Part shown: piece after piece, positions 5,581 to 29,276 of the stretch
Layout of the letters: each line of letters starts with the position of its first letter
Position numbering within the stretch: position 1 is the stretch's first letter
Source: a virus
Strand: one strand, 5' to 3'
IMG/VR virus record: IMGVR_UViG_3300042387_000959
Location: 1-29,276 of that record
DNA: 29,276 nucleotides
Notes under the pieces: generated by a model
What the model was told of the DNA's origin: nothing
The model's database searches: none
The model's input: only the letters and a program-made list of their open reading frames with translations
Position numbers and translations under genes: made by a program

Positions 5581-6105
5581 TTAACTGGTTCTTCTTGTTC
5601 TTAACAATGGTTCCATTGCGGTTATGAATGTTGGTTTAAACTTCAATAGTTTACTTAACATATCTAAAGTTTCTTGTTCAATGTTTAACATATCACTATT
5701 GATATATAAACCACTTTCCTCACCAACAATAAATGTAAAACTTATTTCAGTTTCCGTCATATTACCATCTAATCTTATTTGATTTTCATCAATGGTTATA
5801 CCCGGGTCTAATTCCGCTAATTGTGAAACTTGTTGTCTGAATGAATCAATAAACTGACTTATTGAACTTTTTTCCTCATCTTTTAATTTAACGTCTTCTT
5901 GGTCTGTAGAAAGTATTTTTACTTCTACGTCATTGATAACCTCAACGTTGTCAAATTGTTCCTTTGATGAGTCTAATGAGGGTTCTTCACCTGTTTCGAT
6001 GTCCTCGTTTAATGTTTTCTTTGTAATATTTTTTGATTCATTAAGGTTTCTCAATGTATTTAACATTCCCTTAATTTGGTCATATTCTGATTTGTTCTTG
6101 TTCAT
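5581..6105 (-). CDS. Unknown acidic protein, probably structural
   Basis: The 174-aa protein starts MNKNKSEYDQIKGMLNTLRN, followed by an acidic, flexible segment. From about residue 75 it looks ordered: a helix (SSISQFIDSFRQQVSQLAEL), then beta-rich ITIDENQIRLDGN and EISFTFIVGEESGLYINSDM, then a helix (ETLDMLSKLLKFKPTFIT). No catalytic motif is visible. It overlaps the end of the amidase-fold gene by 26 bp and abuts the 79-aa gene. The context of likely virion proteins supports a structural role, but no family is recognised. Confidence 0.6.
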   Translation of the reverse strand: MNKNKSEYDQIKGMLNTLRNLNESKNITKKTLNEDIETGEEPSLDSSKEQFDNVEVINDVEVKILSTDQEDVKLKDEEKSSISQFIDSFRQQVSQLAELDPGITIDENQIRLDGNMTETEISFTFIVGEESGLYINSDMLNIEQETLDMLSKLLKFKPTFITAMEPLLRTRRTS

Positions 6106-6700
6106 CTTTAAAAAGTTGTATAAAATTGAATGATGGGTTTATATCTGTATAAATATTTGAAAAATTAGATTTACATACAACTCCATTGAATTTTATTGCA
6201 TTTTCAAAGAATCCTTGAGTTTTAACTGATTTTTTTGGTATATTGTGTTTATCACAAAGTAAATCACATAGTTGTGATAATGACCTCATTTGGGAATCAG
6301 TATACTTATCCCAAAAGTAATAATTCCTCCACCCTTGGGTGTGAGGTTCTGACCTATATATGTCACCTATCCAATTAGTTAAAAATCCCGTAATGGTGTT
6401 TTTATTTAACCATCCGAGATTTTCAATTGCAATTTTTATAAACTGTTTATCGATTTGAGGGTCATCAAAAGTATTTGAATAATTATTTGTATCAAATATT
6501 TGGTAAACCGTACCTAATTTAGTAATAATGAAGTGTGGTACTTGACTGTATTTTTCATTATTCCTATATTTTATTTTACCAATAAAATCATCCGCTCTTC
6601 TTGATGTATCATATAGTAGAATCTGTGTTTTTTTAGACTTTCTACGAGTAATGTTAAGATTTTTACTATCTAAATTTTCTACGTTGTGTATTTCCAACAT
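6080..6700 (-). CDS. Amidase-fold (Amidase_2/T7 lysozyme-like) protein, probably catalytically degenerate
   Basis: The 206-aa protein resembles phage N-acetylmuramoyl-L-alanine amidases in order and spacing: QVPHFIITKLGTVYQIFDTN (about 53-72), FIKIAIENLGWL (about 87-98), LTNWIGDIYRS, YTDSQMRSLSQLCDLLCDKH (about 133-152) and a C-terminal YTDINPSFNF. The Zn ligands of active members seem absent. The early 'LHHT'-type histidine is replaced in QILLYDTSR (about 27-34), and the late 'GHN/GHD' position reads SVKTQG. H56 in PHF may remain. It may therefore be a structural or peptidoglycan-binding virion protein rather than an endolysin. No signal peptide. Its start lies inside the -1-frame extension of the gene upstream. 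Confidence 0.55.
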   Translation of the reverse strand: MLEIHNVENLDSKNLNITRRKSKKTQILLYDTSRRADDFIGKIKYRNNEKYSQVPHFIITKLGTVYQIFDTNNYSNTFDDPQIDKQFIKIAIENLGWLNKNTITGFLTNWIGDIYRSEPHTQGWRNYYFWDKYTDSQMRSLSQLCDLLCDKHNIPKKSVKTQGFFENAIKFNGVVCKSNFSNIYTDINPSFNFIQLFKDEQEQIRI

Positions 6701-6893
6701 TCCTTATGAAATTTTTTCTCACTGCGGATGAAACTGATGATGGTATATCATTACCATCTTGTGTTAAATCTTGATTATCAATTGGTTCTTCTATGGTTTC
6801 AATATCATTTGTTTCCACCTGAGACTCCCCAATTTCCTCCAAACCATCTATTTGAGATGGTATTATTGGTATTAATAGTTCTTCTACTAATTT
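6666..6893 (-). other. -1-frame continuation of the Pro/Glu-rich membrane protein
   Basis: After the A10 run (plus-strand T at 6891-6900), the -1 frame reads K-LVEELLIPIIPSQIDGLEE, then IETIEEPIDNQDLTQDG, and ends VRKNFIRNVGNTQRRKFR with TAG at 6666-6668. It has AT-rich third codon positions, the same acidic Glu/Pro/Ile character as the upstream tail, and no internal ATG. It therefore reads best as a C-terminal extension reached by -1 frameshifting or polymerase slippage, or as one gene split by a homopolymer sequencing error. It fills a stretch that otherwise has no gene (6701-6886) and overlaps the amidase-fold gene by 35 bp. Confidence 0.6.
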
Positions 6894-8140
6894 TTTTTTT
6901 CTTCATCTGTTGTTTCAGATAAAGACTCAACCGATGTTTCAGTAATTACCTCTTCTACGATTGGTTCAGGAATAACTTCCTCTACAATAGGTTCGGAGAC
7001 TACCTCCTCAACGATATTCTCAATTGTGGGTTCGACTATAGGTTCAGGAATAACTTCCTCTACAATAGGTTCTTCAACTATCGGAATAACTATCGGAATT
7101 TCTTCAACTACTATCTCTGTAGTTGGTGTTGGTATTGGTTCTTCAACTATTGAAGATATCGGAGCTGGTTCAGTAAAAACTTCTTCAGATTCATCCTCAA
7201 CCAAATCAAATTTTCTTTCCCATTCGTCTAAAACCATTTCTCTTACTTCATCGTCACCCAACGCAGGAACAAATTCCGTAACCAGTTCATTAATAGGTTT
7301 TGGTTCATCAATTGTTTGAGTTTCCTCCGGTTTAACTAAATCGATAATGGGTGAATTTTCATCCATTGGTTTAAGGTTATGTGGTAAAATCTCTTCCCAC
7401 TTTTCAACGATTGGTTCATCAATTTTTTGTTCAATAACCTCTTCAGGTTTTTCAACTGGTTCAGGAACAAAAACGTCAAAATTTTCATCTACTTTTTTTT
7501 TGTATTCCTCAGATGCCTTTACCAATTCCTCATTTGGTTTTGGTGGGTTTGATAATATCTCTTCTAATACTGATAAATCATCTTCTGATAATCTAACTCT
7601 AGAAACTTCGCCAACTATATCTTTAGCCTCAACAATTGGTGTATTTGGTTCAATGGGGGTGTTAGTTTCATTCTTAGAATTTTGTATAAATTTAACCAAC
7701 ATATGTAAGAATGAAAGTGAGATTATTGGTAACATACCTCCAGCAAAAAACGCCAAAAATCTTTTATGACCAACAAAATCATTTGGGTCAACACCCATAA
7801 ATTCAACTAACGGTGATGTTAACTCAACCCAAGATTTAAACGACTCACCATTTATATCAATATATGAATAAGCGAAGAAAATATTACCTATAAATTGTAC
7901 CAATGTTACAATACCGAAAGGAAAATAAACTTTCTTTCCCATATCAGCGGATATCGCAGCCAATGCTGATAATGCTGCAATTTCAATACCAACAGATAAG
8001 TATAAAGCCCACGTTACCGGATTGGAAATACCATACCATTTAGTAACGTGTGAAATGGAAACAATTGCTACGGTTATAATCGGTATTAAAAATGCCGATA
8101 TAATTATAGTCTTAAAATTTTTACTAAACCAATTTTTCAT
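6887..8140 (-). CDS. Four-helix membrane protein with Pro/Glu/Val repeat tail (0-frame product)
   Basis: The 417-aa product has four predicted membrane helices: about 10-30 (TIIISAFLIPIITVAIVSI), 43-64, 72-92 (VYFPFGIVTLVQFIGNIFFA) and 128-151. A long acidic cytoplasmic or periplasmic tail follows. The tail contains RLSEDDLSVLEEILSNPPKP, then Pro/Glu/Ile/Val repeats such as EEPIVEEVIPEPIVE. A 32-bp perfect DNA repeat (6963-6994 and 7041-7072) lies in the tail. The 0-frame stops right after a run of ten A (sense strand), and the -1 frame stays open with matching composition to 6666, so the natural product may be about 491 aa. Its ATG directly follows the TAA of the upstream gene. Function unknown; a phage membrane or host-takeover role is only a guess. 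Confidence 0.65.
   Translation of the reverse strand: MKNWFSKNFKTIIISAFLIPIITVAIVSISHVTKWYGISNPVTWALYLSVGIEIAALSALAAISADMGKKVYFPFGIVTLVQFIGNIFFAYSYIDINGESFKSWVELTSPLVEFMGVDPNDFVGHKRFLAFFAGGMLPIISLSFLHMLVKFIQNSKNETNTPIEPNTPIVEAKDIVGEVSRVRLSEDDLSVLEEILSNPPKPNEELVKASEEYKKKVDENFDVFVPEPVEKPEEVIEQKIDEPIVEKWEEILPHNLKPMDENSPIIDLVKPEETQTIDEPKPINELVTEFVPALGDDEVREMVLDEWERKFDLVEDESEEVFTEPAPISSIVEEPIPTPTTEIVVEEIPIVIPIVEEPIVEEVIPEPIVEPTIENIVEEVVSEPIVEEVIPEPIVEEVITETSVESLSETTDEEKKN
6963..7072 (-). repeat. 32-bp direct repeat in the Pro/Glu tail coding region
   Basis: Identical 32-bp segments at 6963-6994 and 7041-7072 (ggttcaggaataacttcctc and onward) encode the repeated peptide EPIVEEVIPEP. They reflect internal duplication in the repetitive tail. 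Confidence 0.85.
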
Positions 8141-9808: not shown

Positions 9809-10222
9809 CTAACGAACTATCAATAGTGTACCCAAAACTAAAACGGCGGCACCCGAAAGTATCGATGTAAACCTGCTTTTAACTTTCTCTTTCTTTAATT
9901 GAAACTCAAGTTTTTTTGAGTAGTTTTCCATAACTGTATATTTCTTATCCTGAGCGTCAATTATAGTGATATAATTCTCCTTTTGAATAACCATAGTGGA
10001 GATGACACTATCTTTAAGTGATACCTTTTCTTCTGTCTTTGCAAGTTGTTCGTTTGCTAATTTTAATTCAGCCATAGCCGAATCACCTTTTAGTAAATCC
10101 TTTGCGATTTGTTTCGCTACGTGAACCGGAAAACATTTTACCTTTTCCTTACTTGTATCTGTCTGAGAAAAAGCTGTCAAGCTCAGGCTCAGTATAGTTG
10201 TCAACACGATTAATCTTTTCAT
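9809..10222 (-). CDS. Secreted coiled-coil protein with C-terminal membrane helix; possible spanin partner
   Basis: The 137-aa protein has a classic signal peptide (MKRLIVLTTILSLSLTAFSQ, probable cleavage after FS or near TAFS-Q), typical of Bacteroidetes exported proteins. The mature part contains CFPVHVAKQIAKDLLKGDSA, then a long charged helix, then a hydrophobic helix at about 117-135 (FTSILSGAAVLVLGTLLIV). The first 74 bp lie inside the 3' end of the gene at 10149-10520 in another frame, the way Rz1 genes sit within Rz. Unlike Rz1 it has no lipobox and has a C-terminal membrane segment, so it could be an unusual spanin subunit or another envelope protein. Confidence 0.6.
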   Translation of the reverse strand: MKRLIVLTTILSLSLTAFSQTDTSKEKVKCFPVHVAKQIAKDLLKGDSAMAELKLANEQLAKTEEKVSLKDSVISTMVIQKENYITIIDAQDKKYTVMENYSKKLEFQLKKEKVKSRFTSILSGAAVLVLGTLLIVR

Positions 10223-10520
10223 GATATTCTTTTTTAACTGTTGTTTTTTTCTTTTTTATGTCTTCAATTTGTTTGTCGACCTGTTCAATCTCCTTGTTGA
10301 GACTCATAATGGTGCTATCCAACTTTAAATTCTCACCATGGAGACCCTGAATAACAACATTTAGTGAATCAATCTGTGCCTTTTCTTTATTAGACATTGT
10401 AACTGATGGTGTGATAATAAAAATTACCCAATAAAACAGAAACAACCCTAGAATTACAAATAATAATGTTTTATAATTCTTACTAAAAAAAGAACCTACC
10501 GTGTTTAAATTCTTGTCCAT
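10149..10520 (-). CDS. Rz-like inner-membrane spanin candidate
   Basis: The 123-aa protein has a short N-terminus, a strong membrane helix (about 19-37, LLFVILGLFLFYWVIFII), and a long periplasmic coiled coil (QIDSLNVVIQGLHGENLKLD; then LNKEIEQVDKQIEDIKKKKT), ending DNYTEPELDSFFSDRYK. This is i-spanin (Rz) topology. The 74-bp out-of-frame overlap with a signal-peptide gene is the arrangement seen for Rz/Rz1 pairs. If correct, it links inner and outer membranes in the last step of lysis. No endolysin or holin is recognisable next to it, so the call is by topology and gene arrangement only. Confidence 0.55.
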   Translation of the reverse strand: MDKNLNTVGSFFSKNYKTLLFVILGLFLFYWVIFIITPSVTMSNKEKAQIDSLNVVIQGLHGENLKLDSTIMSLNKEIEQVDKQIEDIKKKKTTVKKEYHEKINRVDNYTEPELDSFFSDRYK

Positions 10521-21092: not shown

Positions 21093-24000
21093 TTAACATA
21101 TCATTCCTGAACATGGATGTGTTAAATCAGTTATAGTTGAATTTGATGGTACAGTAGGTACTCCAGTTCGTATGGTGTAATAAGATAAACCGTATGACCA
21201 AAGATTCATAATACACATTGTATATGTTCCAGATGTATTAAATGTTCTTGTATTCCAACTACCATCACACTCCTGAACTCTCACATATAATGTGCCGCCG
21301 TCAGATACTGCATAATCAGTTGGGTCAAAGTAAACCTCATGACATGTACAATTTTGATTTAATTCACATTCATTCGCGGTCAGGGTTATTTGACCTACTC
21401 CTCGTACTACTACCGTATTCTCACATGCACATACAAAAACAACATCATTTTGGTCTACTTGTACCCAACTATAAGGTATTGTTTCGGTATTTCCATTTTG
21501 ACAATTTATGTATTCTATATCTCCACCATCATTTACATTCGGGAATAAAATTTGATATGTTTTACAAGCACAACTAAATGGTGTTGGTGTTGGTGATGTT
21601 GTCGGTGTTGGTGATGGAACTACAGGTGTTATAGTATTAGTTGGGGTTATGGTTCTAGTTGGGGTTATTGTTGGGGTTATGGTATTAGTAGGTGTTATAG
21701 TTGGAGTTATGGTATTAGTAGGTGTTATAGTTGGAGTTATGGTATTAGTAGGTGTTATAGTTGGAGTTATGGTATTAGTTGGGGTTGGGGCGATAGGTAG
21801 TCCACAACAATCATCTAAATTAACTCTGTAAATATTTTGACAACATCCAACACAATCCAATTTTACGTAAATTTCAAGTAAATTAGGGTTGATACCAGTT
21901 AAATTACAAGTACTTCCAGATGGTAATGAAACACAATATGTAGAACCTGTAACTGTTGACTCGGTTAAACCTGTATAAACTGTACAATCACTATAAATTG
22001 AGTTTGATGTTATATTAATTATTACACCTTTAGGTGTTACTGTATCCCTAACACATGGTACTCCCGGTGATGATGTAACTGATGGTGTTATTGTTGGTGT
22101 TGGTGTTAAAGTGTTTGTTGGTGTTATCGTTATAGTTGGGGTAAGAGTATTGGTAGGTGTTGGTGTTATCGTTATAGTTGGGGTAAGAGTATTGGTAGGT
22201 GTTGGGGTAATTGTATTTGTTGGTGTTACAGTTGGAGTTAATGTATTAGTTGGTGTTACCGTTGGGGTTGGAGTTGGGTCCACACATGTTCCCTCTCCAA
22301 GTATTTCAATCGAGACTCCTAATTCAACTAAATTATTTGTAAATCCTGATGTTGCAGGTAATAAACAAACACACTCTAAAATCATGACACTATTACCCAA
22401 AATGGAAACATCATAGATAACAGTTCCATCACATTTTACCCAATCAAATTGATAGTCATTAGGTGTGGTGTTAGTTAAAGTATAATCGTTACAAGGTGAG
22501 CAACCTATATTATTACACAATAAAGGTTCTTCTATAATTAAATCTAATGTTACATTTTGTACAGGTGGAATATCATCAACTGTACATGTCCAACAACCAC
22601 TATTAGTTCCCCCACTATATGTTTGTCCAATAATACCAGGTACATCGTTTAATACATAATAATCACCACAACAACTTTTAAATTTATATGATTGTGTTGT
22701 AGTCGGTGTTATTGATGGAGTAACTGTAGGGGTTAAAGTATTTGTTGGTGATGGTGAACCTCCCGGAGTTTGAGTATTGGTAGGGGTAAGAGTATTAGTT
22801 GGTGTGATTGTATTGGTAGGTGATGGTGAACCTCCCGGAGTTTGAGTATTGGTGGGGGTTAGGGTATTTGTTGGTGTTAACGTATTTGTGGGAGTCAGAG
22901 TATTAGTTGGTGTTAGAGTATTAGTAGGTGTTATCGTTATAGTTGGAGTGACAGTATTGGTAGGTGATGGTGAACCTTCCGGTGTTTGAGTGTTAGTCGG
23001 TGTTAAGGTATTTGTTGGAGTTAGAGTATTAGTTGGTGTGATTGTATTTGTGGGAGTTAAGGTATTAGTAGGTGTTAAAGTTGGTGTTTCAGTTGGTGTG
23101 GGGGTTGGACAGGGATTTTCAAGTAAACAAGCATTACAATCGGGAAAAAATAACCCGAGTGTTTTGGTAGGATAAATTGGATTATATGGTAACGCACCAC
23201 TATTAACACTATAACATTTACCGTCAATAATATATGTGTCAGGAAGATTTAAAATCGTCCCCATAATATTAAAATACACATCTTCTTCACCGCCACAACA
23301 ATTTGTAAATGCGTATAAATAAATTGGTGTTGATGGGGTAACTGTTGGTGTAATTGTATTGGTTGGTGTAATTGTATTTGTTGGTGTGTTTGTTGGAGTT
23401 AATGTATTTGTTGGTGTTGGTGATGGGATATCATTAAATGATGGTGATGGTGTAATCGTATTAGTTGGAGTAATCGTATTAGTTGGAGTAATCGTATTAG
23501 TCGGTGTTAGGGTATTAGTCGGTGTTAGGGTATTTGTTGGAGTAATCGTATTAGTCGGTGTTAGGGTGTTTGTTGGGGTTAATGTTGGGGTTAATGTGTT
23601 TGTTGGAGTAACTGTTGGTGTTGGGGCAATAAAACAGTCATCATCACTTGTACATGGTGAACCTGCTGTTAACCATGATGAATATGTATTATATTGAGTA
23701 TCATATGCAAAATAATACGAATTACTGGGTGGTGTGGCACTTAAACATTTACCCAAAACACCCGCAGTTGTTGTTGAACCCGTTATTTCAGTAGTTAATA
23801 CTCCGCATGGTGTATATGTAAAAAAAACCTTACCATTTAATGATGGGTCAGTATTTTCAATTGCACTTTCTAAATCAGTTTGTGTAACCTCAAGTGAATG
23901 ACAAAAACAATCACTTTGAGGTGTTGGTGTTGGGGTAAGGGTGGGCGTTAATGTTGGAGTTGGGGTTACAGAAGAACATGGGGGACATTCACCCGATTCA

Positions 24001-24662
24001 CAACTAGGTTGTTTAACCCACGTTCTGTCATCCACAGTCAAAGATGCTGGACCCGAAGATGTAACAACAATAAAACATATACCACGCTCTAAATAAACAT
24101 CACCAACATTATAAAATGCCCCACTTTGTGTTTCATATAATTGACCATTTGGGTTACAACATTCTACTAAATATTTTGATGTTTGACCTGGTGTGGGTGT
24201 AATAGTAGGTGTTGGGGTAGGTGTTGGTGTTTCACAGGGTGGAGCTTCACTATTTGTAAAACAATCAGTACAATCGTCGTATATAGTTGCCGGTATTCCT
24301 ATACCACTTACAGTAGTATTAATACCTTGATATTCCCAACATTTACCGACATAAAATACTGTTTTTCCAACATAATTCGCCGCAACACTATTTGGTATAT
24401 CAAATACATAAAAATCAAACCCATCACAACAATTTACAAATTCCCATCCTTGTAAGGAATCATTACAATCAGTACAATCGCTGTATGGTCCAACAAAATT
24501 GGTATTTGGTACTGTTCCGGGTATGTTTGTTGCTTCCCAACACGATAAAGTTGTGTTATCAAATAAAACGACACCCGACGTATAGACGGTGTCGTCGACT
24601 AAAAAATCATTAGTTGTCGCGGGGTCAGAACATAACCTAAATTGTTTTATCGAAAATCCCAT
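21093..24662 (-). CDS. Giant TP-repeat protein with cysteine-rich modules
   Basis: The 1189-aa protein alternates Cys-rich domains with Thr/Pro linkers. The N-terminal domain (MGFSIKQFRLCSDPATTNDF...) carries a first module with VNCCDGFDFYVF, KCWEYQG and DDCTDCF. Later modules include ECCNPNGQLYE with GICFIVV; TNCCGGEEDVYF with KCYSVNSG and DCNACLLENPC; and KSCCGDYYVL with SGCWTC. Linkers are [12 protein letters not shown]-type hexapeptide runs, six in number. The C-terminal ~165 aa (SCACKTYQILFPN... [16 protein letters not shown]... CSGMIC) is shared with the gene at 26307. There is no signal peptide, as expected for a virion protein. The Thr-rich linkers probably form extended stalks. It is likely a host-contact fibre or decoration protein. 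Family unknown. Confidence 0.65.
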   Translation of the reverse strand: MGFSIKQFRLCSDPATTNDFLVDDTVYTSGVVLFDNTTLSCWEATNIPGTVPNTNFVGPYSDCTDCNDSLQGWEFVNCCDGFDFYVFDIPNSVAANYVGKTVFYVGKCWEYQGINTTVSGIGIPATIYDDCTDCFTNSEAPPCETPTPTPTPTITPTPGQTSKYLVECCNPNGQLYETQSGAFYNVGDVYLERGICFIVVTSSGPASLTVDDRTWVKQPSCESGECPPCSSVTPTPTLTPTLTPTPTPQSDCFCHSLEVTQTDLESAIENTDPSLNGKVFFTYTPCGVLTTEITGSTTTAGVLGKCLSATPPSNSYYFAYDTQYNTYSSWLTAGSPCTSDDDCFIAPTPTVTPTNTLTPTLTPTNTLTPTNTITPTNTLTPTNTLTPTNTITPTNTITPTNTITPSPSFNDIPSPTPTNTLTPTNTPTNTITPTNTITPTVTPSTPIYLYAFTNCCGGEEDVYFNIMGTILNLPDTYIIDGKCYSVNSGALPYNPIYPTKTLGLFFPDCNACLLENPCPTPTPTETPTLTPTNTLTPTNTITPTNTLTPTNTLTPTNTQTPEGSPSPTNTVTPTITITPTNTLTPTNTLTPTNTLTPTNTLTPTNTQTPGGSPSPTNTITPTNTLTPTNTQTPGGSPSPTNTLTPTVTPSITPTTTQSYKFKSCCGDYYVLNDVPGIIGQTYSGGTNSGCWTCTVDDIPPVQNVTLDLIIEEPLLCNNIGCSPCNDYTLTNTTPNDYQFDWVKCDGTVIYDVSILGNSVMILECVCLLPATSGFTNNLVELGVSIEILGEGTCVDPTPTPTVTPTNTLTPTVTPTNTITPTPTNTLTPTITITPTPTNTLTPTITITPTNTLTPTPTITPSVTSSPGVPCVRDTVTPKGVIINITSNSIYSDCTVYTGLTESTVTGSTYCVSLPSGSTCNLTGINPNLLEIYVKLDCVGCCQNIYRVNLDDCCGLPIAPTPTNTITPTITPTNTITPTITPTNTITPTITPTNTITPTITPTRTITPTNTITPVVPSPTPTTSPTPTPFSCACKTYQILFPNVNDGGDIEYINCQNGNTETIPYSWVQVDQNDVVFVCACENTVVVRGVGQITLTANECELNQNCTCHEVYFDPTDYAVSDGGTLYVRVQECDGSWNTRTFNTSGTYTMCIMNLWSYGLSYYTIRTGVPTVPSNSTITDLTHPCSGMIC
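21193..21294 (-). repeat. 102-bp dispersed repeat, copy 1
   Basis: The segment coding for [20 protein letters not shown] and onward differs at about four positions from 26407-26508. Neighbouring parts of the same C-terminal domain are clearly more diverged, which suggests recent gene conversion or recombination. Confidence 0.85.
21691..21780 (-). repeat. Three 30-bp tandem repeats
   Basis: Three copies of a 30-bp unit (ggtgttatagttggagttat plus ggtattagta), differing only at the last base of the third, encode a 10-residue TP repeat. They lie in the sixth linker of the giant TP-repeat protein. Confidence 0.9.
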
Positions 24663-24800
24663 TAATTACTTAATATATCAGATAAATACCGGAAAGTAAA
24701 TTTTAAAAAGAAATAAATGACTTAAAAATAAAATTATTATTTACGGTTACTTGATATGTTTTTAATACTGGCATTATTTTATAAATATAAAAAATTTAAT
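24663..24800. other. Intergenic gap before the giant TP-repeat gene
   Basis: This AT-rich, 138-bp gap is the longest within the tail-protein block. The sense strand contains CCGGTATTTATCTGATATAT about 15-25 nt before the ATG at 24662, a possible promoter. I see no clear hairpin terminator and no small gene. Confidence 0.35.
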
Positions 24801-25625
24801 TTATACACAGTACGTTGGATTAACACCACAATCTATGTAAGCAATTCCACAATAGTTAGGGTCAGTTATTGTTCCACTTAGACCTAATTGTGCAACTAAA
24901 TATTCTCCAGCACTTGGATTTAAATTTATATTTCCGCTATCACTTGAGTTACCTGTTACAATTTTCCATGCTGGGGTAGTATATGTCCCAATAACCACAC
25001 CCGAACTATTTACTCTATAAAAAGTGATTGGAATATCTGATGTTGCATTTGTTGTGTTACTTAAATTATCTTTAAGTGTCCATGTAACGGCATATTCTGA
25101 ATTTTCATCTATTGTTTCAATGGTATACCATAAACAATACCCTGATGGGGGACTACCATCGGGAGTATTTGATGGTGTCGGGGTATTAGTTGGTGTAACA
25201 GTAGGAGTAAGAGTTCTTGTTGGTGTTAAAGTAGGGGTAACTGTGTTAGTTGGTGTTACATTATATGTCGGTGTTACGGTTGGTGTTGGTGTTGGGGTGG
25301 GAGTTAAAGTAGGTGTTGGTGGTGTACCTGATTCACAATCGGAACACCTTAAATCAACATACGACATTTGATATCCACCTTGATTTGTTTCAGAATTATT
25401 GTGACCATCACAATGTTCAACAAATAAATAAATGTTTTTTATTAATGAACTTATAGTTAACGAAAATGTATATCCACTTGGTGGAATGGGAATGAGAGTT
25501 TCTGAACCATTTATGTAATCCGTGCCCACACCATTTATATTGGTTGTTAAACCTGTATAAATGTAATAACCACCACATGGTGTTGTTCCTATAAAATTAT
25601 TTACTGTTATTTGATATGTTGACAT
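24801..25625 (-). CDS. TP-repeat protein with two flanking domains
   Basis: The 274-aa protein has an N-terminal domain of about 100 residues (MSTYQITVNNFIGTTPCGGY ... YLFVEHCDGHNNSE ... DLRCSDCESG). A Thr/Pro linker follows at about 101-157 ([20 protein letters not shown]...), then a C-terminal beta-rich domain (YCLWYTIETIDENSEYAVTW ... SAGEYLVAQLGLSG ... CGIAYIDCGV). Six or more cysteines suggest disulfides outside the cell or metal sites. It is on the same strand as the other TP-repeat genes, 26 bp from the next, and is probably a smaller member of the same virion-surface set. No family recognised. Confidence 0.6.
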   Translation of the reverse strand: MSTYQITVNNFIGTTPCGGYYIYTGLTTNINGVGTDYINGSETLIPIPPSGYTFSLTISSLIKNIYLFVEHCDGHNNSETNQGGYQMSYVDLRCSDCESGTPPTPTLTPTPTPTPTVTPTYNVTPTNTVTPTLTPTRTLTPTVTPTNTPTPSNTPDGSPPSGYCLWYTIETIDENSEYAVTWTLKDNLSNTTNATSDIPITFYRVNSSGVVIGTYTTPAWKIVTGNSSDSGNINLNPSAGEYLVAQLGLSGTITDPNYCGIAYIDCGVNPTYCV

Positions 25626-25651
25626 GTTATGGTATAATAATTAAATCTAAT

Positions 25652-26242
25652 TTAGCAACATTGGTTTGTGTTAGTTAAAACTCCACCCCATTGTGTATCA
25701 TTAATATATGGTGTGGTTCCAGGGTAAACACATCCAAATACTTGAGGTATCATCCCACCATAACCAGCAACACTTGTAATAGCTGAAATATTGTCACAGT
25801 GCTGGTAAGAAATGTTAACACTAGGTGTATTTCCACTAAAATAATATGTCCATTGAGAACAACATGGTGGGGTTGGGGTTGGGGTGATGGTTGGGGTTGG
25901 GGTGATGGTTGGGGTTGGGGTGATGGTTGGGGTTGGGGTTGGACTTATATCACACATGACTTCAGTATCAAAACATAACGTATCGTAACATGGATATGTT
26001 TTACTATCGTTTGTATAAATGTTTTTAACGATGTACCTATTTGTTGTTTCATCGGTCATTTTAACCCAATATTGGGTATCAAAACTCATTCCTGTTAAAA
26101 CAATTGATGAGTTTGTTAAACCAGTTCCATATAATGTATAACTTGTATTATCATGTTCAGGATATGGATTTGGTCCGGACTTATATCTTATTGAATAAGG
26201 TCCGTCATTTGTTATATTATATAATTTTACGTTTAATCCCAT
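25652..26242 (-). CDS. Short TP-repeat protein with fibronectin-like N-terminal domain
   Basis: The 196-aa protein starts MGLNVKLYNITNDGPYSIRY. It has a domain of about 100 residues whose segments (SSIVLTGMSFDTQYWVKMTD; RYIVKNIYT) look like a fibronectin type III-type beta sandwich. A linker of [16 protein letters not shown] type (about 100-125) follows, then a Cys-containing C-terminus (PCCSQWTYYFSGNTPSVNIS ... VFGCVYPGTTPYIND ... NTNQCC). It lies in the same array as the other TP-repeat genes. The linker DNA holds telomere-like G-runs on the plus strand. Confidence 0.6.
   Translation of the reverse strand: MGLNVKLYNITNDGPYSIRYKSGPNPYPEHDNTSYTLYGTGLTNSSIVLTGMSFDTQYWVKMTDETTNRYIVKNIYTNDSKTYPCYDTLCFDTEVMCDISPTPTPTITPTPTITPTPTITPTPTPPCCSQWTYYFSGNTPSVNISYQHCDNISAITSVAGYGGMIPQVFGCVYPGTTPYINDTQWGGVLTNTNQCC
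25867..25942 (+). repeat. G-run tandem repeat with G-quadruplex potential
   Basis: The plus strand (template strand of the gene) has ggggttggggtgatggtt units repeated about three times, with many GGGG runs separated by TT or short spacers. This satisfies simple G-quadruplex patterns. It encodes the Thr/Pro linker on the other strand. Confidence 0.7.
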
Positions 26243-26280
26243 TGGTATTCTATAAATACTTTATTCATTATTTTATTCTT

Positions 26281-26303
26281 AATATTGTACATCATTCAAT
26301 ATT
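26281..26303. repeat. Small AT-rich inverted repeat after the last TP-repeat gene
   Basis: aatattg (26281-26287) and caatatt (26297-26303) form a 7-bp stem with a 9-nt loop just after the stop codon at 26307. It has no strong T-tract on the minus strand, so it is at best a weak terminator. Confidence 0.3.
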
Positions 26304-26306
26304 TTA

Positions 26307-29276
26307 TTAACAATTAGTTCCTGAACATGAAGCACCTGTATTATTTACAAAAGAGAAAGGTGCTACGGATATATTACCTCCAACTAAGATATAAATAGAA
26401 TTAGCATATGACCAAAGATTCATAATACACATTGTATGTGTTCCAGATGTATTAAATGTTCTTGTATTCCAACTACCATCACATTCTTGAACTCTAACAT
26501 ATAATGTGTTGTCGTCAGATGCAGTGGCGTCAGTTGTGTCAAAGAAAACTTCATGACATGTACATCCGGTGTTTATTGTACAATTAGCAGATGACTCAGT
26601 AATTTGTGTACTTTGTGCACTTACCGTACCATCACACGCACATACATCAACATAATCAGTTTGATTTTGTATCCAACTATATGGTACTGTTTGTGTTAAA
26701 CCATTCGAACAATCTGTATAGGTTATATCACCACCAGCGTTATTGTTTGGATATACTACATTATATGTTTTACAAACACATTCAGGACAAGGATTAACCG
26801 CTACACATTGGTCACAACTTACATATGGTCCAATATACATTTCAGGTGATGTTATACATGGAGTAATAACTCCATTTATTTCATAACAACATCCATTGTA
26901 GTTTATTGATTTATGTAAAAGGTAAGTCATTGCATCTTCACCACAAGGTATTTGAACGCCAATTGATATTGATAAATCACAATTCGGACATTCATTAAGT
27001 ATACATAAATCTGCTGTTATTTGTGCACAATTACAAGGATGTGTATTCACACACACACCACAATCATCTGACGTAAATAAATTATAATCTACAAAACCAT
27101 AAGTACCATCACCACCTTGACTAATTATACTATAACAACAATCATTAATGTAAATTGTCCATCCGATTTGAGAGCTGTCATACCAACCAGATTCTACATT
27201 TACATATATGGTATCTTGAATACCATTAATAATACAACATGAATCTAATTGTAAACTTACCACACCCATTGATGGTGTTGGTGTTGGTGTTCTAGTTGGA
27301 GTTGGAGTAATTGTTCTAGTTGGTGTTATGGTTGGTGTTAATGTTGGTGTAATTGTTCTAGTTGGTGTTAATGTTGGTGTAATTGTTCTAGTTGGTGTTA
27401 TGGTTGGTGTTGGTGTAATTGTTCTAGTCGGAGTCAGAGTATTTGTTGGGGTTAATGTTAATGTAGGTGTTACTGTAGGTGTAGGAGTTGGACAAGGATA
27501 TTCTATTTGACATGCCGGACATGTATTATAAATAAAGTATGGACTACCTGTAGCTACAGATGAGACATATGTTACAATTTGATAACAACAATCAATGTGA
27601 GCTAAAAATTTACCGACATAATCTGCTGGGTTAACACCACATGGTAATTCTACGTCAATTTGTTGAGCACTTCCACAACATTCAGCACATGGTACTACAT
27701 CATATTTTGCCACAATACATGGGGTTGTATCTTTACAAGTTTCACAGTCTATTGGTTCAATTGCCGAACTTGGATAAAAACCATCGGCACCGTTACCACC
27801 TACACCAAGTATTGTCCAACAACATCCAGAAATAGTGATAGTACCAGAGTAAAAGTAAACAGGGGGCGATGGTGGTGGACCAAAAGTCGGTGATGGTGGT
27901 GATGCCAAATTGGTGGTTGTAATGTATTTTCTAATTCCTGTTGTATTACCACAACACGGTATCAATTCAAGATATACAACGGCTTGTGATGGGGTTATAG
28001 TTGGTGTCGGTGTTAATGTTGGTGTTAATGTTCTAGTTGGAGTTAATGTGTTTGTGGGTGTTATGGTTCTTGTAGGAGTTAGGGTATTGGTTGGTGTGAT
28101 GGTATTGGTTGGTGTCAGGGTATTTGTTGGGGTAATGGTGTTTGTGGGAGTAATAGTATTCGTTGGTGTTATTGTCGGGGTAATAGTTCTAGTTGGTGTG
28201 ATGGTATTGGTAGGAGTAATAGTTCTAGTTGGGGTAATGGTGTTTGTGGGAGTGACCGTTGGTGTAATGGTTCTAGTTGGTGTAATAGTATTTGTAGGGG
28301 TAATTGTATTGGTCGGGGTAATTGTATTTGTTGGTGTTAGAGTTGGCGTAATAGTTCTCGTTGGTGTTAAGGTGTTAGTTGGTGTAATCGTATTTGTTGG
28401 TGTTAGAGTTGGCGTAATAGTTCTCGTTGGTGTTAAGGTGTTAGTTGGTGTAAGAGTATTTGTTGGAGTAAGGGTATTGGTAGGTGTCAATGTGTTAGTT
28501 GGAGTTATTGTGTTTGTTGGAGTTATTGTGTTGGTTGGTGTAACAGTAGGAGTGATAGTTCTAGTTGGTGTAATAGTATTTGTAGGGGTGATAGTATTGG
28601 TTGGAGTTACTGTTGGTGTAAGAGTTCTAGTTGGAGTTATTGTGTTTGTAGGGGTGAGTGTATTCGTAGGGGTAATGGTGTTCGTGGGTGTTAATGTATT
28701 GGTAGGTGTTATAGTATTTGTTGGGGTTACTGTTGGGGTAAGAGTTCTAGTTGGAGTAATTGTGTTTGTTGGTGTGATGGTGTTAGTTGGTGTAACAGTT
28801 GGTGTAAGGGTTCTAGTCGGAGTTAGAGTATTTGTTGGAGTTATAGTATTTGTTGGAGTTAGGGTTCTAGTTGGAGTTAAAGTATTAGTCGGTGTTATAG
28901 TATTGGTAGGGGTCAGGGTGTTGGTTGGGGTAACAGTTGGAGTAAGAGTTCTAGTTGGTGTTATTGTATTAGTAGGTGTAAGGGTGTTAGTAGGAGTAAC
29001 AGTTGGAGTAAGAGTTCTTGTTGGTGTTAATGTGTTAGTTGGAGTGATGGTATTGGTTGGGGTAATTGTATTTGTTGGTGTTACCGTTGGTGTAAGGGTT
29101 CTAGTTGGAGTTATTGTGTTTGTTGGCGTGATAGTATTCGTAGGAGTTAATGTTGGTGTAAGAGTTCTAGTTGGAGTTATTGTGTTTGTAGGGGTTATGG
29201 TATTTGTCGGTGTCAACGTATTCGTAGGAGTTAATGTATTCGTAGGTGTAACTGTGTTTGTAGGGGTTAATGTATT
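26307..29276 (-). CDS. Very large TP-repeat/Cys-module protein, N-terminus beyond the window
   Basis: The frame is open to the window edge (989 codons seen). The internal TTG at 29216 is not a credible start because the same TPTNT repeats continue upstream of it. The first ~440 visible residues are nearly pure repeats ([22 protein letters not shown]). Cys-rich modules follow: [13 protein letters not shown] with GCCWTILG and [18 protein letters not shown] with CCYQIV and CPAC; a second, shorter TP linker with TPTRTITP; then [13 protein letters not shown] with CCYSIIS and DCGVC; and [13 protein letters not shown] with CCYEING and CDQC. It ends in the domain shared with the gene at 21093. It is probably a long fibrous virion adhesin. 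Length variation through the repeats is likely. Confidence 0.65.
26407..26508 (-). repeat. 102-bp dispersed repeat, copy 2
   Basis: This is the partner of 21193-21294, with about four mismatches over 102 bp. It encodes [20 protein letters not shown] and onward in the C-terminal domain of the last gene. Confidence 0.85.
27990..29276 (-). repeat. Long degenerate tandem array encoding TPTNT repeats
   Basis: About 1.3 kb of degenerate 18-bp units (plus-strand pattern gttggtgttaatgtattt and variants) with interspersed 12-bp units encodes TPT-x-T repeats and reaches the window edge. It includes a perfect 64-bp duplication (28324-28387 and 28390-28453, 66-bp period), indicating recent expansion. 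Confidence 0.9.

Follow-up and report, generated by a model that had tools for sequence, protein, structure and literature searches.

The analysed window, a 29,276-nt stretch of viral DNA (positions 1 to 29,276 of IMG/VR record IMGVR_UViG_3300042387_000959), carries on its minus strand a gene for a 417-aa membrane protein (positions 6887-8140), characterized by the ORF list, hydropathy and charge, an AlphaFold model and comparison with homologues. The 3′ end of this frame reads GAT GAA GAA AAA AAA AAT TAG. The A10 tract (6891-6900, minus strand, context G-A10-TTAG) is the sole A/T homopolymer of at least 10 nucleotides in the whole window, and the 0-frame stop codon (TAG, 6887-6889), which ends the short form, begins 1 nt past the run. 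The -1 frame is open from TTA (6890-6888) to TAG (6668-6666) and contains no ATG. Joining the two frames yields a 491-aa product, in which the extension (6666-6890, minus strand) contributes 74 codons after the run and a stop. Its last residues form a conserved basic C-terminus, RNVGNTQRRKFR (6669-6704, minus strand), most of which overlaps, in another frame, the start of the next gene. This gene (6080-6700, minus strand, ATG at 6700) encodes a 206-aa, endolysin-like Amidase_2 protein; the long form ends 32 nt beyond the amidase ATG, thus its last 10-11 codons overlap the amidase gene. The preliminary description of this DNA had given the same coordinates for the tract, frames and stops, the same lack of ATG in the -1 frame and the same length of the joined product, all of which proved correct when checked against the sequence. 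An in-frame A9 in the membrane protein gene (7493-7501, minus strand), with stops in the other frames a few nucleotides later, was considered as a second conserved site and rejected: in locus L001 there is an A8 at this place, and in L003 there is no run.

The N-terminal domain of the membrane protein comprises four hydrophobic helices (residues about 11-149, 7694-8110, minus strand), as judged from hydropathy and from the AlphaFold model (mean pLDDT 71). A fold search with the four-helix model found no significant match in the PDB, and in a viral library it found only unnamed phage proteins. The PHROG search gave no match for the membrane protein. The remainder is an acidic tail (76 D/E versus 20 K/R in 265 residues), which by the positive-inside rule would be cytoplasmic. 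Within the tail, and thus in both forms, residues 171-214 (7499-7630, minus strand) resemble the toxin-binding segment of TacA/AtaR/KacA antitoxins: PF08681 matches with E=4.9e-6 (26.9 bits, cut-off 21), and antitoxin chains in the PDB match the same segment (7zg5, 6ajm, 5zgn, 6gtq and 7ak9; best E=2.8e-5). Only positions 36-79 of the 80 in PF08681 are matched; the ribbon-helix-helix DNA-binding half is absent, the N-terminus being the membrane domain. The TacA-like segment occurs in 54 of the 81 loci described below, all of them in the clade that carries the A-run. By this resemblance the tail could be a membrane-anchored antitoxin mimic directed against host acetyltransferase toxins.

The neighbours of the gene are a sigma-70 factor, a 95-aa protein with a single transmembrane (TM) segment and the Amidase_2 enzyme, which matches PF01510 with E=3.2e-9 and, weakly, a PHROG endolysin (E=3e-4). 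The membrane protein has holin-like traits, namely TM helices and an adjoining endolysin-type gene. On the minus strand the window also contains two overlapping ORFs (9809-10222 and 10149-10520). Of these, the upstream ORF weakly matches an Rz-like spanin (E=3e-4) and the other begins with a signal-like N-terminus; they are a possible i-spanin/o-spanin pair. With these neighbours, and the weak Rz-like match further upstream of the gene, a role in the lysis region is plausible. The preliminary description had also pointed to the frameshifts by which tailed phages make two related proteins. This analogy is loose, because the gene lies between the small TM protein and sigma factor on one side and the amidase on the other; tail or tape-measure genes, the usual context of tail assembly chaperones, do not adjoin it in the window.

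Relatives were collected by scanning IMG/VR with the protein, its N-terminal domain and the downstream amidase. Counted as distinct by the 700 nt that precede the amidase, they amount to 81 loci, which an amidase tree divides into two groups (split support 100/100): the window's clade of 61 and a sister group of 20. All clade members except one have an uninterrupted A10 (49 loci) or A11 (11 loci) near the 3′ end of the gene. Relative to the genomic frame the long frame lies in -1 in 54 of these 60, in frame in five (L060, L072, L085, L088 and L089) and in +1 in one (L063). Neither run nor extension was found in the 20 loci of the sister group, where the membrane protein ends near the amidase start. 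The remaining clade member, L087, has lost both, hence the feature has been dispensable at least once. The clade runs appear to have one origin in the amidase tree, therefore the locus counts do not represent independent events, and the argument from conservation rests on long retention of the run while other synonymous sites of the gene changed freely.

Sense-strand A-runs of at least 10 are rare in these genomes: across the 60 homologous loci (632 kb) only two others were found, both inside the same gene, in L085 and L072, which have two A10 runs each. A rescan with deeper amidases returned almost exclusively contigs already found, indicating that sampling of the clade in the IMG/VR collection is near saturation. 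Clade contigs reach 335 kb. Searching isolate phage records at the DNA level gave no hits, searches at the protein level reached only distant uncultured phages, and a scan of a genome collection gave one distant MAG contig (L172), which has no run. The Rfam search gave no match. The host is probably a member of the Bacteroidota, judged by likeness in kind to the lake phages of PMC9723584.

The A-run survives exchange of the N-terminal domain. Comparison with the window and L001-L005, which have the four-helix type, revealed that in eleven loci (L008, L009, L040, L041, L047, L053, L059, L060, L076, L081 and L084) this domain is swapped for a TM-coiled coil-TM type, with the acidic tail, the A-run, the extension and the amidase neighbour kept. 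Most outgroup proteins bearing the coiled-coil membrane domain lack the run. Two further arrangements were noticed among coil-type proteins. Outside the set, a related membrane protein ends after an A9 (L280, 4846-4854, TTA AAA AAA AAG TCT TAG), and its -1 frame stays open for about 294 coiled-coil-like residues, which makes it a second, different candidate for a slippage extension. Another subfamily of the coil-type protein has, conserved in four similar loci (L311, L312, L331 and L329), an A10 in frame that is followed after 5 nt by a stop in the -1 frame; in L311, L312 and L331 the A10 lies about 388 nt before the stop.

Evolution of the extension was analysed in 21 pairs of relatives, which are disjoint in members and not fully independent in history, with substitution counts confined to the extension upstream of the amidase ATG. 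In the -1 frame pN was 0.124 and pS 0.364 (dN/dS 0.27), and differences at codon positions 1, 2 and 3 numbered 168, 167 and 369. The other two frames of the same DNA showed no synonymous excess, and the upstream 0-frame tail gave 0.36 in the same analysis. By these counts the extension is under purifying selection. In most loci it ends in RNVxNxxRRxFR or a variant, overlapping the amidase start. Another motif, LYWExDDxNPNQVIYDLENNxxIIPTSEEEI, was observed in the extensions of 28 loci (e.g. L060, L065 and L082), far from the gene overlap; the motif is absent from the rest of these loci. Several large proteins with long repeats between cysteine-rich segments are encoded in the window at 21093-29276 (minus strand); this style of repeat recurs in some of the extensions (L008, L121 and L125).

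In all 54 loci with the -1 arrangement the distance from the run to the start of the 0-frame stop is 0-12 nt (median 1), and the -1 frame stays open for about 30-150 more residues. For the +1-frame stop, taken as a control, the median distance is 68 nt. Were the long form alone of importance, nothing would hold the 0-frame stop in place; since it is kept close to the run, both forms appear to be selected. Each of the five relatives encoding the long form in frame has kept an A10, followed at 2-6 nt by a stop in the +1 frame. What is conserved is thus a pair of products rather than one reading: a quick stop and a long frame appear to be retained together, no matter which of the two is genome-encoded. 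The suggestion that two C-terminal forms are made by slippage or frameshifting is supported by the recurrence of the arrangement in 54 loci and by purifying selection on the extension; homologues do not all end at the 0-frame stop without a counterpart of the extension.

These observations suggest, with a probability of roughly 80%, that the A10 acts as a site of programmed slippage, at which RNA polymerase adds or loses an A, and that both products are made. Among run-bearing clade members the run is never shorter than 10; the A9 of L280, outside the set, is a point on the other side. The third positions of its Glu and Lys codons showed zero changes in the 21 disjoint pairs, whereas 19% of the Glu and Lys codons elsewhere in these genes differ (P about 1e-6 if the pairs are taken as independent). 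The locus also has two traits of the slippage class: an A-run of about 9 or more within coding sequence, and conservation of the run together with selection in another frame.

According to this reading RNA polymerase, most likely that of the host, would insert or drop an A when copying the tract and so produce mRNAs of mixed length. From mRNA with ten A's the 417-aa membrane protein ending just past the run would be translated; mRNA with eleven would give the 491-aa form, in which translation of the basic C-terminus runs over the beginning of the endolysin-like amidase gene. We infer that slippage takes place during transcription, that the two proteins are both produced and that their ratio matters. 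The ratio could be important for membrane or tail complexes, or through coupling of amidase translation to that of the long form. Since the extension, with its acidic motifs and basic tip, brings ribosomes to the amidase start, amidase translation may be coupled to the slip, for which spa13/spa32 offers a precedent (PMC5009743).

An unlikely alternative is that the mRNA is faithful and the long form arises by programmed -1 ribosomal frameshifting on A_AAA_AAA within the run. Every -1 site has this heptamer in frame, -1 shifting in bacteria usually takes place on A-rich heptamers (PMC3711429), and T_TTA_AAA is also present at a few sites (L125, L133 and L141). Because A_AAA_AAA fits into an A10 in every phase, its presence alone cannot discriminate between the two mechanisms, and a ribosomal shift may add to slippage. 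Seven A's would be enough for the ribosome, yet all run-bearing members of the clade have at least 10; sites of the form TTA AAA AAA AAA retain a third AAA that is superfluous to the heptamer, and A_AAA_AAG is never used inside the run. Downstream RNA structure in related phages, a check proposed in the preliminary description, was not consistently present: for 39 sites the mean z was -0.52 versus -0.16 in control stretches, with z below -2 at 5 of 39 sites and in 9 of 117 controls, a test that covers neither pseudoknots nor Shine-Dalgarno-like stimulators. In the relatives encoding the long form in frame the quick stop is in the +1 frame, and reaching it takes a shift in the opposite direction, which polymerase indels provide and a -1 ribosomal shift does not. 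Transcriptional slippage is therefore better supported than the ribosomal shift; both may contribute.

The same tract could instead be a contingency locus, toggled between long and short states at the DNA level by replication slippage. Five in-frame states and one +1 state occur among the relatives, and L063 and L062 are nearly identical except that the run of L063 is one A shorter (A10 versus A11), which means that DNA-level change also occurs. Phase variation is nevertheless very improbable as the main explanation: run length is equal in 9 of 10 near-identical pairs, a 700-nt stretch with the A10 is identical in about 13 separate assemblies of one phage, and 54 of 60 loci are in one state rather than a mixture, with length held at 10-11.

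Homopolymers are error-prone and the joined frames make a single ORF, as expected if a sequencing or assembly error had split one gene, but for the clade this part of the preliminary description can practically be discarded, because the -1 arrangement recurs, with both A10 and A11, in 54 distinct loci from many metagenomes, the stop directly after the run is conserved, and about 13 assemblies agree over the 700 nt. Equally negligible is the idea that the -1 ORF is a small gene with a start of its own, or what is left of a decaying one: there is a TTG at codon 17 of the window's extension, but 43 of the 54 extensions have no in-frame ATG, alternative starts are scattered over differing places, the -1 frame is tied to the run, and a dN/dS of 0.27 rules out decay.

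Known cases of programmed transcriptional slippage come from single bacterial genes, insertion sequences and RNA viruses. In the openly licensed literature that we searched, we found no case in which slippage is conserved throughout a clade of tailed DNA phages. Confirmation of slippage here would mean that standard gene calling truncates the membrane protein in the majority of these phages; when an A10 turns up in an AT-rich phage genome, it would then deserve to be treated as a potential two-product signal instead of an error. The clade also provides a natural comparative set for slippage, with 54 short-encoded and five long-encoded loci, A10 and A11 runs and two types of N-terminal domain. 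A wider and rather doubtful picture can be drawn for this clade of large tailed phages. In it, slippage of the host RNA polymerase, not ribosomal frameshifting, would set the proportion in which a membrane-anchored hub, with a tail mimicking TacA-type antitoxins, is made in its two forms. That slip would also couple long-form translation to the downstream lysis amidase; the homopolymer would thus control ratio or timing in the lysis region.

The closest parallels come from bacteria. One is the tssM1/tssM3 pair: in Citrobacter rodentium tssM1, slippage on an A11 occurs at about 20-25%, and neither form is dispensable; tssM1 encodes the short form and Yersinia tssM3 the long one (PMC4256274). 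As in the phage gene, the product is a membrane protein, a stop soon follows the poly-A run, an extra A leads to a longer C-terminus, both states are found encoded in genomes and RNA structure is not needed. The proteins are unrelated, tssM is a bacterial secretion gene known from two species whereas the phage clade comprises dozens of loci, and the phage reading comes from DNA sequence. In Shigella spa13/spa32 and mxiE (reviewed in PMC5009743) slippage likewise makes a C-terminal extension, and the end of the extension overlaps the start of the next gene, whose expression is affected by slippage. Those are type III secretion genes, whereas in the phages the next gene, the candidate for coupling, is an amidase. 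The tau and gamma forms of dnaX resemble the phage pair in that one gene with a run of 9-10 A's gives long and short C-terminal forms, with some species encoding the long form in frame and others spreading it across frames: the A9 of Thermus thermophilus dnaX undergoes slippage, and two-ORF dnaX genes have an A10 (PMC5009743, PMC3711429). Unlike the phage protein, DnaX is a cytoplasmic replication protein. Lambda G/GT (PMC5009743) shares with the present gene its phage origin, the -1 extension and the two forms; there the shift is ribosomal and the product a tail chaperone, whereas here the product is a membrane protein, and the gene has a sigma factor and an amidase for neighbours.
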